NCBI RefSeq assembly: GCF_900115165.1
Contig: NZ_FOVP01000006.1
Coordinates: 1 to 64,000 of the forward strand
Direction of reading: 5' to 3'
DNA: 64,000 nt
DNA from: Roseovarius lutimaris
Lineage (GTDB): Bacteria > Pseudomonadota > Alphaproteobacteria > Rhodobacterales > Rhodobacteraceae
The notes under the pieces are model-generated. The model searched no databases. It had not been told where the DNA came from and saw nothing but the letters and a program-made list of their open reading frames with translations. Both the position numbers and the translations under genes were made by a program. Below, one piece after another: positions 1,040 to 61,397 of the stretch. How positions within the stretch are numbered: position 1 is the stretch's first letter; each line of letters opens with the position of its first letter.

Positions 1040-1789
1040 TCAGCAGGTATAATTGAGGCCCAGACGGCCCCCGTCGACATAGATGGTTTCGCCGGTGATG
1101 TAGCTGGCCTTTTTCGAGCACAGGAACGCCACCACGTCGCCGATCTCACGCGCCTCGCCGGCGCGTCCCAATGGGGTGCGCGACATGGCGGCCTTGAACG
1201 CCTCGGGATTGGCATTGACGCCCGCCATCATCTCGGTGTCGATGGAACCGGGGCCGACCGCGTTGACGCGGATGTTGTTCTTGGCCAGCGCCAGTGCCGC
1301 CACCTTGGTCAGCTGCATCACGCCACCCTTGGAGGCGCAATAGGCCGGGATCGCGGGGATCGCGACCTGCGCATTGATCGAGGACATGTTGACAATCGCG
1401 CCGGCGATCTTGTGCTCGACCATGACCCGGGCCGCCAGTTGCGTGGCCACGAACACACCGCGCAGGTTGATGTCGATCACCCGCTCAAAGCTTTCCAGCT
1501 CATAGGTGAGAAAATCGCCGGGCATGGCGACGCCCGCGTTGTTGATCAGCGCATGCAGAGGGCCGTGATCGGCCGCGATCTGCGCGAACATCGCCTCGAT
1601 CTGGGCGATATCGCCCATGTCGCAGGCAATCGCGGCTTTGGCACCGAGCGCCTTGCCGGCGGCGGTAACACCTTCGTCGTTGATGTCGGACAGAATCACA
1701 TCATAGCCATCTTCAGACAGCGCCTCGGCGCAGGCATATCCGATGCCCTGGGCCGCGCCGGTGACAAGTGCGAGTGGTTTTTGTGTCAT
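1040..1789 (-). CDS. SDR-family NAD(P)-dependent oxidoreductase
   Basis: A classical short-chain dehydrogenase of about 249 residues. The cofactor motif TGAAQGIG is near the N-terminus, NNAG follows in the middle, and the catalytic set is seen as MSSIN and YCASKGG. The C-terminal half carries the VNAVGPGSIDTEMM segment that follows the YxxxK helix. ATG 1789 is preferred over ATG 1804 because it leaves 4 bases after the hyuB stop at 1794 and skips a non-conserved MRNNT leader. It is the last intact gene of a four-gene minus-strand run. The substrate cannot be read from sequence; oxidation of a hydroxyl intermediate of the same pathway is a fair guess. Confidence 0.85.
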   Translation of the reverse strand: MTQKPLALVTGAAQGIGYACAEALSEDGYDVILSDINDEGVTAAGKALGAKAAIACDMGDIAQIEAMFAQIAADHGPLHALINNAGVAMPGDFLTYELESFERVIDINLRGVFVATQLAARVMVEHKIAGAIVNMSSINAQVAIPAIPAYCASKGGVMQLTKVAALALAKNNIRVNAVGPGSIDTEMMAGVNANPEAFKAAMSRTPLGRAGEAREIGDVVAFLCSKKASYITGETIYVDGGRLGLNYTC

Positions 1790-50831: not shown

Positions 50832-51147
50832 TCTGCGCTCACCGTCCTTTTGTCACGGATCATCCTGGCATGTCCTGATCCCTTGCCGCTGGTGCACATG
50901 CATACCATATCCGGCGTTATACTCCATTTCGGCGCGGATTACGTTGCGCTAACCGGGGTGCCCGGTCCAGTCGGCCCTGACATCTCAACAGCCGTGATGC
51001 CGGGTTGGTTCCGACGACCGGATAAAGAAGGTTTTGCGGTCGGGTGCCGCATGCGGGCCCGAAGCGGCCAATCGAGGGAACCAATTGCCTGTTTGCGGCA
51101 TTGAGACATTGGAATGTATCAATTGCACACAGGAAAAAGAAAAGCAC
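50832..51147. other. Intergenic region upstream of EEP and PLDc_N genes
   Basis: About 316 bases between divergent genes. Apart from the candidate EcfG promoter at 50987-51012 on the minus strand, I see no gene, hairpin terminator or repeat. The PLDc_N gene promoter should lie in its right half; no consensus EcfG site was found there. Confidence 0.4.
50987..51012 (-). promoter_or_regulatory. Near-consensus EcfG promoter upstream of the EEP gene
   Basis: On the minus strand GGAAC (51012-51008), 17 bases, then TGTT (50990-50987). One base differs from the CGTT -10 core. The leader to ATG 50831 would be about 150 bases. Confidence 0.35.
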
Positions 51148-51330
51148 ATGTTGGAAATCAGTGGCCTTGGTGGCCTTATTCTTCTTGGTCTCGCGATCTG
51201 GGCCATCGTCTCGATTATCGGATCTTCAGTCAGCACTGGTAAAAAGGTGCTGTGGGTGTTGCTTGTCTTGCTGTTGCCGCTTCTGGGGTTCATCATCTGG
51301 TTGATCGCCGGGCCAAAATCCGCGCGATGA
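51148..51330 (+). CDS. Small PLDc_N-domain membrane protein
   Basis: A 60-residue protein with two hydrophobic helices: GLGGLILLGLAIWAIVSIIG and VLWVLLVLLLPLLGFIIWLI, ending AGPKSAR. This matches the cardiolipin-synthase N-terminal (PLDc_N) domain on its own; no phospholipase domain follows. Such short stand-alone copies are common in stress-gene surroundings; function unknown. Confidence 0.75.
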   Translation: MLEISGLGGLILLGLAIWAIVSIIGSSVSTGKKVLWVLLVLLLPLLGFIIWLIAGPKSAR

Positions 51331-51394: not shown

Positions 51395-51419
51395 GGAACC
51401 ATCGCGCAGTATTTGCGTT
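51395..51419 (+). promoter_or_regulatory. Consensus EcfG promoter without a downstream gene
   Basis: GGAAC (51395-51399), 16 bases, CGTT (51416-51419): an exact match to the alphaproteobacterial general-stress sigma factor consensus. No open reading frame with a ribosome site follows before the terminator at 51529-51560, so it should make a short non-coding transcript. Confidence 0.7.
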
Positions 51420-51425
51420 GTCTAT

Positions 51426-51560
51426 ACGGATCACGCGTTCCTCGTTGGGTGATCCTGAAAGATCGTGGTTTCCGGCATCCTATATATCCGGGGCGATCCT
51501 TCAGCGTCCGTTTTGTCCCTCGGGCGCGCCGCCCCTGTCGATCTGGCAGGGGCGGTTTTT
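51426..51560 (+). ncRNA. Candidate stress-induced small RNA (about 135 nt)
   Basis: The transcript is bounded by an exact EcfG promoter and a strong terminator. Its 5' third is followed by a long stem: CTGAAAGATC (51455-51464) pairs with GATCCTTCAG (51495-51504) with one mismatch, enclosing about 30 bases with CCGG on each side of an AT-rich loop. A single-stranded C/U-rich stretch (TTTTGTCCCTCGG) precedes the terminator hairpin. No plausible start codon with Shine-Dalgarno is inside. The Caulobacter sRNA GsrN is a precedent for an EcfG-controlled RNA, but I see no basis to call this GsrN. It ends 22 bases short of the convergent AI-2E transporter stop. Start site inferred 6-7 bases after the -10. 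Confidence 0.55.
51529..51560 (+). terminator. Rho-independent terminator of the candidate sRNA
   Basis: CCGCCCCTG/CAGGGGCGG, a perfect 9-bp GC stem with 9-base loop, followed by TTTTTGTTT on the plus strand. No T-run on the minus strand, so it serves plus-strand transcripts (the sRNA and perhaps read-through from the PLDc_N gene). Confidence 0.85.
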
Positions 51561-51581: not shown

Positions 51582-52634
51582 TCACTGTTCGGTCGTGTCC
51601 GGAATTTGTTCGAACAGATCGAGCATCACCATGGCGATTACCAGAACCGGAATTGCAATAATGCCGCCCAACGGCCCCCAGAGCCAGAGCCAGAACAGAA
51701 GCGAGACGAAGATCAGCAACGGATTGACCGAGATATTGCGACCAATCAAGCCGGGGGTGACAAATTGCGCCTCAAACACATTCAGCATCAGAAAGGCAAC
51801 TGGCGGCAAAAGCGCCATCGGCCCGCTAAAGGCAATGAGACCCGCCAGAAACAGGCCGACCGTCACCGCCAGAGGCCCGAGATAGAGAACGAAGTTCAGC
51901 ACCGCCGCCACCGCCCCCCAGACGAAAGGCGACGGCAGGCCGATCAGCATGAGCACGATCGACAGCACCAGACCCAAGCCGGCATTGATGATCGAGATGG
52001 TCACGAAATACCGCGACACCAGATGTTCGGCAGTATGAAGCCGCTCGCGGATAACGTCCGGTTTATCCCTGGCGATGAAATGCGACAACCAGTTGTATAT
52101 GCCATTGCGGGTCAGCAGGAAGAAAAACAGAGATCCGGAAAAAATCAGGAAATGCGCAACAAGGACGGGCGCAAAGAAAAGCGCATCGGTCAGCGAGGGG
52201 ACGGCGGTATCACCGCCCTCGGCCTTGGCCGTGCTGTCGGCGCCGTCTGTGCCAAGAACCTCCTCGACGCCTTTGTTGACCTCATCAATCCCCTGAATGA
52301 TCGTGCGGAACTCCTCGACGATATTGCGGACTTCGTATTTGAGCTTTGGCAACTCGCCAACCACCTTCCAGATCAGGGGTTCGGCAAGGAAGACGACCGC
52401 CATCAGGAGCAACAAACCAAAGCTGAGAATAGCAAGGGCCGCAAGGGTGATCGGCATGCCAAGACGCCGCAGAAAATCGGTCAGCGGCGCCAGAATCACG
52501 CCGGTGACCAGGGCAAGCACAAGTGGTGAGAGAATATCCGCGCCCAGTTTCAGGGCGCCGAATGTCAAAATGGTCGCGATCAGGAATATCGCAAACCGCA
52601 AGGGCGGATCAATTGCAGGATTTGGCTGGTACAT
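51582..52634 (-). CDS. AI-2E family transporter (PerM-like)
   Basis: A 350-residue membrane protein with about eight hydrophobic segments, normal for the family. Typical parts are LGADILSPLVLALVTGVILA near the start, SRYFVTISIINAGLGLVLSI, LPSPFVWGAVAAVLNFVLYL, GPLAVTVGLFLAGLIAF and FVTPGLIGRNISVNPLLIFV. Substrates of most members are unknown; some act as sodium/proton antiporters or in quorum signal export. An exact EcfG promoter lies so close (52643-52667) that the mRNA would have almost no 5' leader. Confidence 0.83.
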   Translation of the reverse strand: MYQPNPAIDPPLRFAIFLIATILTFGALKLGADILSPLVLALVTGVILAPLTDFLRRLGMPITLAALAILSFGLLLLMAVVFLAEPLIWKVVGELPKLKYEVRNIVEEFRTIIQGIDEVNKGVEEVLGTDGADSTAKAEGGDTAVPSLTDALFFAPVLVAHFLIFSGSLFFFLLTRNGIYNWLSHFIARDKPDVIRERLHTAEHLVSRYFVTISIINAGLGLVLSIVLMLIGLPSPFVWGAVAAVLNFVLYLGPLAVTVGLFLAGLIAFSGPMALLPPVAFLMLNVFEAQFVTPGLIGRNISVNPLLIFVSLLFWLWLWGPLGGIIAIPVLVIAMVMLDLFEQIPDTTEQ

Positions 52635-52642
52635 CCTGTGCT

Positions 52643-52667
52643 AACGCCGCAGGATGCGTTTGGTTCC
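52643..52667 (-). promoter_or_regulatory. Consensus EcfG promoter of the AI-2E family transporter gene
   Basis: On the minus strand GGAAC (52667-52663), 16 bases, CGTT (52646-52643). With a start point about 6-7 bases downstream the RNA begins 2-3 bases before ATG 52634, so the message would be close to leaderless. Confidence 0.7.
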
Positions 52668-54752: not shown

Positions 54753-54777
54753 GGAACCATTGAGCCGATAAGGCGTT
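54753..54777 (+). promoter_or_regulatory. Consensus EcfG promoter of the DUF1328 gene
   Basis: GGAAC (54753-54757), 16 bases, CGTT (54774-54777), 37 bases upstream of ATG 54814. Exact match in both boxes; divergent to the yqjD-type promoter 44 bases away. Confidence 0.75.
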
Positions 54778-54813: not shown

Positions 54814-54984
54814 ATGCTGTACTGGGCTGTCGTATTTTTCATCGTCGCGATCATCGCGGGCGTGTTTGGATTTGGCGGAATTGCCTCGGCTTCGGCCGGG
54901 ATTGCCCAAATTCTGTTCTTTGTCTTTATTGTTCTGTTCGTATTGGCGCTTGTCATGCGGGCGATCAACGGGCGCGCGCCCTGA
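54814..54984 (+). CDS. DUF1328 (YtjA) family small membrane protein
   Basis: A 56-residue protein with two helices: [40 protein letters not shown] and [16 protein letters not shown]. This is the standard DUF1328 sequence pattern. AGGAG precedes the ATG. Under an exact EcfG promoter and followed by a strong terminator, it forms its own stress-induced unit. Function unknown. Confidence 0.87.
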
Positions 54985-55079: not shown

Positions 55080-55898
55080 TCAACCTGTCAGTGTTTCGGT
55101 GCTGGCAAAGAACATCGCCTGACTGACGGCGGATTGCACCTGATCTTCGGTATAAGGTTTGGTGATCAGGAATGCGGGCTCGGGCCGCTCGCCGGTCAGC
55201 AAACGCTCGGGGAATGCGGTGATAAAGACCACAGGGATTTCACCCATTTCGGAAAAGATTTGGTTCACCGCATCGATGCCCGATGATTTATCGGCCAGCT
55301 GAATATCTGCAAGGATCATATCCGGTGGTTGCCTGTGGGCCAGATCGACGGCGCCATCGCGGGTTCTGGCGATTCCGGTAACCTCGTGACCCATGTGTTG
55401 GACAATTGAAGAAATATCCATGGCGATAATCGCCTCATCCTCGACCACCATGATACGGCCCTGGATGTTGCGCTGCATTTCAGTGCGGGCAATTGCCAGA
55501 AGATCCTCCGCTTCGGTCGCGCGAATGCCCATGATTTGCCCGATCTGATCAGCCGGAAACTGTTCGATACTGTTCAGCAACAGCGCCTCACGGCTGTTTC
55601 TGGTCAGATCGGCAAGGCGCCATTGCGCGCGCGCCTCGGGCGAGCCATCCTTGGGGGTCCGATCCACAGGCGAGCCCGATGATGCCCAGATTGCGTGAAA
55701 GGCCTTGAAAAGCGACAGTTTTACCGAAAGCTTGGGGTCCATTGTGTCTGGGTCGGCAAGGATGGCCTCCAAGGTTGCTAGGGCATATCTGTCGCCGGTG
55801 TCCTGGTTGCCCGTAAGGGCCCGTGCATAGCGCCGCAGATAAGGCAATTCATTGCCAATAGACGCCGAAATCCCGCTTTGATCCTGCTTGTCCGTCAT
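55080..55898 (-). CDS. phyR: General stress response anti-anti-sigma regulator PhyR
   Basis: A 272-residue protein from ATG 55898. Residues 10-145 are the sigma-factor-like domain (YLRRYARALTGNQDTGDRYA, LLLNSIEQFPADQIGQIMGI, EAEDLLAIA) and residues 148-265 a receiver with VVEDEAIIAMD, Asp198 in ILADIQL, FITAFPE and LITKPYT (the FATGUY-type loop). When phosphorylated the sigma-like part captures NepR and frees EcfG. It is divergent from nepR-ecfG-kinase with its own EcfG promoter, giving positive feedback. Confidence 0.93.
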   Translation of the reverse strand: MTDKQDQSGISASIGNELPYLRRYARALTGNQDTGDRYALATLEAILADPDTMDPKLSVKLSLFKAFHAIWASSGSPVDRTPKDGSPEARAQWRLADLTRNSREALLLNSIEQFPADQIGQIMGIRATEAEDLLAIARTEMQRNIQGRIMVVEDEAIIAMDISSIVQHMGHEVTGIARTRDGAVDLAHRQPPDMILADIQLADKSSGIDAVNQIFSEMGEIPVVFITAFPERLLTGERPEPAFLITKPYTEDQVQSAVSQAMFFASTETLTG

Positions 55899-55927
55899 GG
55901 TTTCCCTCAAAAAAAACGCTACATGAT

Positions 55928-55953
55928 GGAACCAAACGCCGCGCAAGCGTGTT
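55928..55953 (+). promoter_or_regulatory. Near-consensus EcfG promoter of nepR-ecfG-kinase
   Basis: GGAAC (55928-55932), 17 bases, TGTT (55950-55953); the first base of the -10 differs from CGTT. It overlaps the opposite-facing phyR promoter almost fully, so one 33-base segment serves both directions. Confidence 0.55.
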
Positions 55954-55960
55954 AGGTTCC
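55935..55960 (-). promoter_or_regulatory. EcfG promoter of phyR
   Basis: Minus strand GGAAC (55960-55956), 17 bases, CGTT (55938-55935), 37 bases upstream of ATG 55898. Exact boxes. Confidence 0.75.
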
Positions 55961-56015
55961 CTGATAGATGCGATATTTTCGCTTAGTACAGTCATATAAC
56001 AAAACCACGAGCGCC

Positions 56016-56198
56016 ATGACAAAACAACGCAGGACATCCAGAGTGACCCAGCAAATCGACGAAAACCTTCGCCGTGTCTACTCCGAGACGGCGCAAGAGC
56101 CGGTGCCGGATCGGTTTACCGACTTGCTGGAGAAATTGCGACAGCAGGAAAAGCCAGAAGACACGGCCGACAACGAAACGGACGGGACCAAGTCGTGA
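56016..56198 (+). CDS. nepR: Anti-sigma factor NepR
   Basis: A 60-residue protein from ATG 56016. The NepR core is IDENLRRVYSETAQEPVPDR followed by FTDLLEKLRQQ, the two helices that clamp the sigma factor; the charged tail is disordered. Its stop overlaps the ecfG GTG start by 4 bases. It holds EcfG inactive until phosphorylated PhyR binds it. Confidence 0.92.
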   Translation: MTKQRRTSRVTQQIDENLRRVYSETAQEPVPDRFTDLLEKLRQQEKPEDTADNETDGTKS

Positions 56199-56749
56199 GC
56201 CAATCCAGAGATCCAAAAGACGAACTGGTGAACCACTTGCCAGCGATGCGCGCCTTTGCCATGAGCCTGACCCGCAACAGCGCTGCGGCGGATGATCTGG
56301 TGCAGGATACGGTTGTCAAGGCATGGAGCAATTTCGACAAGTTCAAGGTCGGGACGAACCTGCGCGCCTGGCTTTTCACGATCTTGCGCAACACGTTTTA
56401 CTCCAACCACCGCAAGCGCCGCCGCGAGGTCGAAGACCCCGAGGGAACCATGTCGGACAAGCTGTCGGAAAAACCGCATCATGACGGGCGTCTCGCGATG
56501 GGTGACTTCAGGAAAGCCTTTGCACAATTGAACGATGAACAGCGCGAGGCGCTGGTTCTGGTCGGCGCCGAAGGGTTTTCATACGAGGAAGCTGCCGAAA
56601 TGTGCGGGTGTGCGACAGGTACGATCAAAAGCCGGACAAACCGGGCCCGCAAGAGACTGGCCGAGTTGATGCATCTGGAGGACGAAGACGAGCTTGAACT
56701 GACCGACGCGGCGACCCTGGCGGTTGTCTCAGACAGTACGGCGGCATGA
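56195..56749 (+). CDS. ecfG: ECF sigma factor EcfG (general stress response)
   Basis: A 184-residue sigma factor starting at GTG 56195. Region 2 is seen in MRAFAMSLTRNSAAADDLVQ, DTVVKAWSNFDKF and LRAWLFTILRNTFYS; region 4 in LNDEQREALVLVGAEGFSYE and GCATGTIKSRTNRARKRLAE. It directs transcription from GGAAC/CGTT promoters, several of which lie within 5 kb. It overlaps the next gene by 4 bases. Confidence 0.92.
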   Translation: MSQSRDPKDELVNHLPAMRAFAMSLTRNSAAADDLVQDTVVKAWSNFDKFKVGTNLRAWLFTILRNTFYSNHRKRRREVEDPEGTMSDKLSEKPHHDGRLAMGDFRKAFAQLNDEQREALVLVGAEGFSYEEAAEMCGCATGTIKSRTNRARKRLAELMHLEDEDELELTDAATLAVVSDSTAA

Positions 56750-60876: not shown

Positions 60877-60931
60877 TTTGCGTTTTGTCGATGACGATTG
60901 TCATCGGATTGAAGCAGGGGTCACGATGCCC

Positions 60932-61031
60932 CTAGAGTATGTTGCTCAAAAGTGGGAACCGGTTTTGAGCTTCTCGAACATGCGAAATCAAGAAGTTAGA
61001 ACGCGCCGCGTTCATCCGAATTCACGCGACA
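60932..61031. repeat. Degenerate alphaproteobacterial extragenic palindromic repeat
   Basis: It starts CTAGAGTATGTTGC, then GCTCAAAA-N11-TTTTGAGC (60944-60951, 60963-60970) with GTGGGAACCGG in the loop, and continues CGAACATGCG ... AGTTAGAACGCG and TTCATCCGAATTCACGCGAC. This order (CTAGAGCATG, AAAAGTGGGAACCGGTTTTG, TTAGAGCG, TCAATCCG-like tail) is shared by a common intergenic repeat family of alphaproteobacteria. Recognition is from memory of that pattern. Confidence 0.55.
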
Positions 61032-61397
61032 TTTGCTTGCGTCAGAGCGGTCGTTGGAAATACCCTGCCCGGTGGTTTCAGGCACCGCGCCGCCCCGACC
61101 CATAGCCAGTTGGTCGGCAAACAGCCGTTTCAGCGGGTCTGCGGTTAACACGCCTGTCACGCTCCAATACTGCGTGCTGCGTTTGTGCGGGGCCGGGTCG
61201 GTCATGGCAATATGTGGCACGATCTGCTCCGGCGTGAGGATCAGAATATTGAACCGCCCCGGTTTTACCGGAGACTGTTTAGCTTTGTTTATGCGACTTC
61301 ATGACTATGTTCATGTTTGCATGAATGCCTCGTCTGCTTCGGCGGGCGTGATGTTTCGACGTCGCGGGGCCTGACGCAAGCGACACCGCGGCGATGC

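Follow-up and report, generated by a model that had tools for sequence, protein, structure and literature searches.

The window analyzed here, a 64,000-nucleotide stretch at the start of Roseovarius lutimaris contig NZ_FOVP01000006.1, carries the general stress regulators phyR (minus strand), nepR and ecfG (both plus strand), placed by Pfam at 55080–56749. Phosphorylated PhyR removes NepR from EcfG, and EcfG polymerase uses promoters of the form GGAAC-N16/17-CGTT. An exact GGAAC-N16-CGTT promoter lies on the plus strand at 51395–51419, in the same place as in relatives, and is followed by a predicted small RNA at 51426–51560 (plus strand), its 5' end set from the promoter and its body from the predicted fold. 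The RNA closes with an intrinsic terminator (hairpin plus T-run, 51528–51560, plus strand), identified by a terminator scan and by alignment A2, described below. Immediately upstream is a small-protein open reading frame of the PLDc_N family (51148–51330, plus strand, Pfam), itself preceded by a near-consensus EcfG promoter (GGAACC..CATT, with CATT for CGTT) at 51077–51102 on the plus strand; in relatives, the full consensus is frequent before PLDc_N. Downstream, an AI-2E family transporter gene (51582–52634, minus strand, Pfam) is convergent with the predicted RNA and has its own EcfG-type promoter at 52643–52667, found by motif scan. Other neighboring proteins were assigned by Pfam as Crp-type, Holin-X-like, and DUF883.

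A sequence-only reading of this DNA had proposed a small RNA gene here, citing the exact promoter, a terminator at 51529–51560, a distance of about 3.5–5 kb to phyR-nepR-ecfG, the same promoter on neighboring genes, and the lack of a minus-strand terminator for AI-2E. The promoter is present as described, the terminator stem spans 51528–51556 and is followed by T's, and the distance agrees with the Pfam placement. The motif scan found the promoters of the neighboring genes, and no minus-strand terminator-like site is listed from the promoter up to the stop codon of AI-2E. The GGAAC/CGTT pattern with a spacer of 15–18 occurs six times in the window, a count reached by none of 100 shuffles, with 1.9 occurrences expected, so that a single promoter site alone is weak evidence. 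Elsewhere in the stress locus, a plus-strand EcfG-type promoter at 54753–54777 precedes the gene of a 56-amino-acid DUF1328 membrane protein (54814–54984), which has a ribosome-binding stretch and is kept in more than 30 loci among the matches listed. Between phyR and nepR, two divergent, overlapping EcfG-type promoters at 55928–55960 suggest that the stress regulators control their own genes.

The predicted transcript folds at −66.8 kcal/mol, whereas shuffles average −49.0 (z −4.69) and none of 200 folds as well, and its approximately 135 bases are predicted to form four plus-strand hairpins, namely SL1 (51428–51455), SL2 (51456–51503), SL3 with a C-rich loop (51504–51527), and the terminator. 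The long stem previously drawn at 51455–51504 reappears as SL2, while the hairpins at 51428–51455 and 51504–51527 were absent from the earlier account, as was the motif UGUCCCU in the SL3 loop (51514–51520, plus strand), which is conserved, predicted to be unpaired, and proposed here as a pairing site.

A BLASTn search with a 191-base segment against 100 genomes, its own included, returned beyond the window's own match just 31–35-base matches in three of the 100. Relatives were therefore reached by synteny, by comparing loci around AI-2E and PLDc_N, and at the corresponding place these have an EcfG-type promoter and a terminator, together with a hairpin patterned as GCACCC..UGUCCCU..GGGUGC. 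From alignment A2 of 10 such RNAs in 10 genomes we built a covariance model, R1, of SL3 plus the terminator; because it includes no promoter, an upstream promoter can serve as an independent test of its matches. R1 matched in 33 of 84 congener (Roseovarius) genomes at E up to 0.01 and, with E limited to 0.001, in three of 394 genomes of the family (the window's own, G476, and G222), and it matched none of the 288 other genomes of the class, the sole match among 289 being the window's own.

We then sought GGAA[CT]-N15..17-NGTT upstream of 48 matches from the genus and two new ones from the family. Among these 50, a promoter lay at −90 to −105 in 27, one (L128) had a GGAAAC variant, and 22 had none. 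Promoter presence followed the score: at 39 bits or more it was found in 22 of 23 (10 being training genomes), the 23rd being the GGAAAC near-match of L128; at 30–37 bits it was found in five of 25; and below 30 bits in 0 of 28 loci, which came from searching 24 NepR-bearing genomes more loosely. Neither of two loci with cut flanks (L173 and L182) has a promoter. Among the 24 promoters whose spacer was counted, it was 16 in 22 and 17 in two. The sequence-only reading had staked its proposal on conservation of promoter and terminator in close relatives, and the two recur together with the hairpins in 24 of 83 congener genomes. The element is present in the cultured R. mucosus DSM 17069 (L038). 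Two genomes (G016 and G044) have two copies each (L183 and L184 with L128 and L129), one beside AI-2E and the other beside the stress regulators; the second copies, L183 and L184, have exact promoters and the four-hairpin fold.

Further comparisons used a set of 25 RNAs, from which L141 (G110) was omitted as a repeat of L140 (G111), in which L128 was kept, and in which L183 and L184 were not included. The four-hairpin fold is predicted in all 25. In A2, 97.9% of pairs are standard, and its covariation was reached by 0 of 500 shuffles. We additionally swapped hairpin arms among 11 of the 25 RNAs, all less than 70% identical, cutting the arms by position, since arms taken from each RNA's own fold would favor own arms. 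Own arms outpaired swapped ones, with only 0, 0, and 2 of 20,000 permutations matching them for SL1, SL2, and SL3, respectively; the hairpin arms covary. Taken alone, SL1 plus SL2 folded better than shuffles in nine of the 11 RNAs (at most six of 200 as good) and weakly in G019 (11 of 200), while in the window, where the cut clips SL2, they folded no better than shuffles (30 of 200).

The occurrence of the RNA follows that of the stress regulators within the genus. NepR was sought in 83 congeners, compared with 84 for R1 (G110 is missing from the 83), and was found in 48. A promoter-bearing RNA is present in 24 of the 48 NepR-bearing and in 0 of the 35 NepR-lacking congeners (Fisher 7.4e-8, not corrected for relatedness and therefore an overstatement of the association, as the species are related). 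It lies 3.4–8.6 kb from nepR in 21 of the 24 genomes and on another contig in three. The other 24 NepR-bearing congeners have no promoter-bearing R1 match, including G014, whose AI-2E matched best. In G476, from the family search, the RNA adjoins phyR. One genome without NepR (G009) carries a comparable double hairpin, along with UGUCCC and a terminator, at 1501–1561 (minus strand) of L138, matched at E 9.4e-4 and lacking an EcfG-type promoter; it is perhaps a relative under other control.

The C-rich motif is a constant part of these RNAs. UGUCCC occurs in 25 of 25, compared with 2.0 in shuffled bodies, a count that is partly selection since R1 favors UGUCCC in SL3. Upstream (5') of the R1 segment, which is free of this selection, GUCCC or UCCCC occurs in 22 of 25 RNAs, compared with 8.4 and a maximum of 14 in 500 shuffles. 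The C's of the motif have a mean predicted unpaired probability of 0.88, compared with 0.36 for other C's (0.62 vs 0.49 in shuffles), and all 25 RNAs have a centrally placed C-rich motif that is predicted to be unpaired. In the window it occurs in SL3 only, the SL2 loop having no C-rich motif; in G053 and G038, SL3 is without UGUCCC. The stems drift while the C-rich loops persist, which marks a loop that pairs or binds. Inspection of GGGACA, AGGGAC, and GGGGAT sites within 40000–62000 of the window gave no convincing target.

A second form was found at Salipiger, Alloyangia, and Citreicella loci. Downstream of an EcfG-type promoter, these have AAGGACG..GUCCUGUCCCU, then a hairpin whose loop contains CCCUGUCCCGACUUCCCUC, and then a terminator. 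Like the Roseovarius RNA, it has UGUCCC between and inside hairpins, and in five of nine cases (L041, L044, L046, L067, and L071) it converges on AI-2E immediately beyond the end of that gene; it differs in having three hairpins rather than four. In the nine RNAs of this form, 96.3% of pairs are standard and the covariation score is matched by 0 of 500 shuffles, although their "further pair types" measure is not beyond shuffles (97 of 500). The corresponding model, R2, gave one strong match in 394 family genomes (G211, with promoter). Against 27 sources it gave four noise-level matches (E 0.14–0.36), the best elsewhere in L099, two at Roseovarius RNAs, and one at the L042 candidate described below. 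Neither model recognizes the RNAs of the other above noise, so the kinship of the two forms rests on place and design.

Further scans covered 80 named loci. Of 566 loose EcfG sites, 28 have TGTCCC after them, compared with 1.45% of sampled positions; several of the 28 are coding by eye (e.g., L052, L057, L060, L066, L068, and L074) and were left uncounted. R1, run against 42 of the 80, gave its best match in L052 (E 0.0036), without a promoter. A terminator scan of the 80 gave four matches, missed known members, and was dropped, and of 31 matches in a motif scan of loci, many within genes, only those with an EcfG-type promoter were kept. In Maritimibacter, Yoonia, a Rhodobacteraceae MAG, and Silicimonas (L042, L061, L082, and L099), an EcfG-type promoter is followed by a short GUCCC-bearing stretch; these may be additional stress RNAs built differently. 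No Rfam 15 family matched at the RNA, either in the window (E up to 1) or in 16 related loci (E up to 0.5). Elsewhere in the window, 60925–61083 (plus strand) weakly matches the Brucella small RNA CI27 (BASRCI27; 27.9 bits, gathering score 59.8), probably by chance.

Short RNAs with C-rich loops, in some cases under stress sigma factor control, are known in Alphaproteobacteria as the Cuckoo or CcsR-type, whose motif is CCUCCUCCC. The Roseovarius RNA resembles them in size and loops and, for some of them, in its predicted control, but their motif occurs in 0 of the 25 RNAs. The nearest precedent is GsrN of Caulobacter, which is reported to pair with the leader of katG and thereby activate this gene; of 67 enriched RNAs, 32 interactions were predicted via its C-rich loop (PMC5869019). 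The same paper proposes GsrN-like RNAs in other families, including Rhizobiaceae and Brucella, from promoter, place, and transcript data, and gives sequence homologs by BLASTn in Caulobacteraceae only (PMC5869019). Two features used there to recognize a GsrN-like RNA recur here: a near-consensus EcfG promoter, exact in the window and present in 24 of 83 congeners, and proximity to ecfG-phyR, at the above distances from nepR in 21 of 24 genomes (PMC5869019). The likeness extends to an EcfG/SigT-type promoter, a place near phyR-nepR-ecfG in most genomes, and a C-rich loop predicted to be unpaired. Set beside the described GsrN, with its one 5' loop of six tandem C's (PMC5869019), the Roseovarius RNA differs in its four hairpins, in carrying C-rich motifs in the second and third, and in the motif itself, UGUCCC. 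In a crude test of pairing with the katG leader, loop energies were no better than with shuffled leaders, of which 207 and 166 of 300 did as well, so the targets may differ from those of GsrN. In the literature searched, we found no report of the Roseovarius RNA, including in the accessible portions of PMC5869019, PMC5830050, PMC8103513, PMC6599016, and PMC4809877, and no paper joining EcfG, a small RNA, and Rhodobacteraceae.

Several other explanations could account for parts of this evidence. Chance, that is, a stray promoter-like string ahead of a terminator, is the least credible of them: about 1.9 such loose promoter strings are expected per window, but fixed-spacing promoters stand before strong R1 matches and not before weak ones, and the arms covary. 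It is also very improbable that the stretch encodes a small protein. Although an ATG or GTG falls at the predicted 5' end in several relatives, the 25 RNAs have no start, frame, or length in common (L135 lacks any qualifying frame), ribosome-binding motifs are mostly absent, and conservation is in pairing and loops instead. We likewise consider it improbable that the stretch is just the 3' untranslated region and terminator of the PLDc_N mRNA with no separate gene. PLDc_N lies immediately upstream with its near-consensus EcfG promoter and, in the window, no terminator is seen between them; however, the RNA has its own promoter at a fixed distance in relatives, a hairpin with a T-run separates it from PLDc_N in L008, and the RNA of G476 stands beside phyR with no PLDc_N nearby. 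Read-through from PLDc_N could occur in addition to the RNA's own promoter.

A similarly improbable explanation is that the element is mainly cis-acting, an antisense or 3'-overlapping transcript limiting the AI-2E mRNA. The sequence-only reading had raised a 3' overlap of the two transcripts, which fits the window, where they converge and no minus-strand terminator-like site intervenes, and convergence recurs in the five second-form loci named above. As a family arrangement the overlap does not hold: in L012 and L037–L040, the RNA and AI-2E are separated by 0.85–1.66 kb with another open frame of 223–543 codons, so the conserved function is not this overlap, while in G476 the RNA is beside phyR, and an antisense would not need conserved loops. 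Somewhat less remote, but still unlikely, is a stress-controlled RNA whose repeated C-rich loops titrate a protein instead of pairing with mRNAs. Short, repeated, exposed C-rich motifs on freely drifting stems would suit such a sponge; nonetheless, no known C-loop-binding partner was identified in this analysis, and the nearest precedent, GsrN, is described as pairing with mRNA (PMC5869019).

On comparative evidence, then, 51395–51560 is a real, conserved gene for a predicted small RNA linked to EcfG. The promoter, the terminator, the covarying arms, the C-rich motif, and, among the congeners examined, the restriction to NepR-bearing genomes come from comparing sequences; we infer in addition transcription, its dependence on EcfG, a start near 51426, and action by base pairing, with ribosome-binding purine stretches as the most probable targets. 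We consider it likely, on balance, that these conserved signals mark a small RNA gene that would be transcribed by EcfG under stress and would pair its C-rich loops with G-rich mRNA stretches. As a new RNA family, it is best read as a new GsrN-like small RNA of the general stress response, predicted to act by base pairing. Under stress, PhyR would free EcfG from NepR, EcfG polymerase would transcribe the RNA, and as its level rose, the C-rich loop would pair with G-rich sites in mRNAs. The likeliest of these would be ribosome-binding purine stretches, where AGGGACA is the complement of UGUCCCU, and AGGGACA or UUGGGGAU at gene starts would be candidate target sites. The RNA would thereby act like GsrN in Caulobacter, giving the general stress response an RNA branch.

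More tentatively, the stress response of marine Rhodobacteraceae may include a dedicated RNA arm, a fast-evolving small RNA beside phyR-nepR-ecfG and AI-2E with an origin separate from GsrN, in which the stems are free to change and two constant, exposed C-rich loops form a twin set of sites for pairing with ribosome-binding purine stretches. A conserved small RNA tied to EcfG offers one short gene to delete and probe, and the covariance model finds this gene in places that annotation leaves empty. If the proposal is true, C-loop RNAs of one kind have been acquired repeatedly by the stress sigma factors of Alphaproteobacteria, and RNAs with C-rich loops would be a recurring partner of EcfG.
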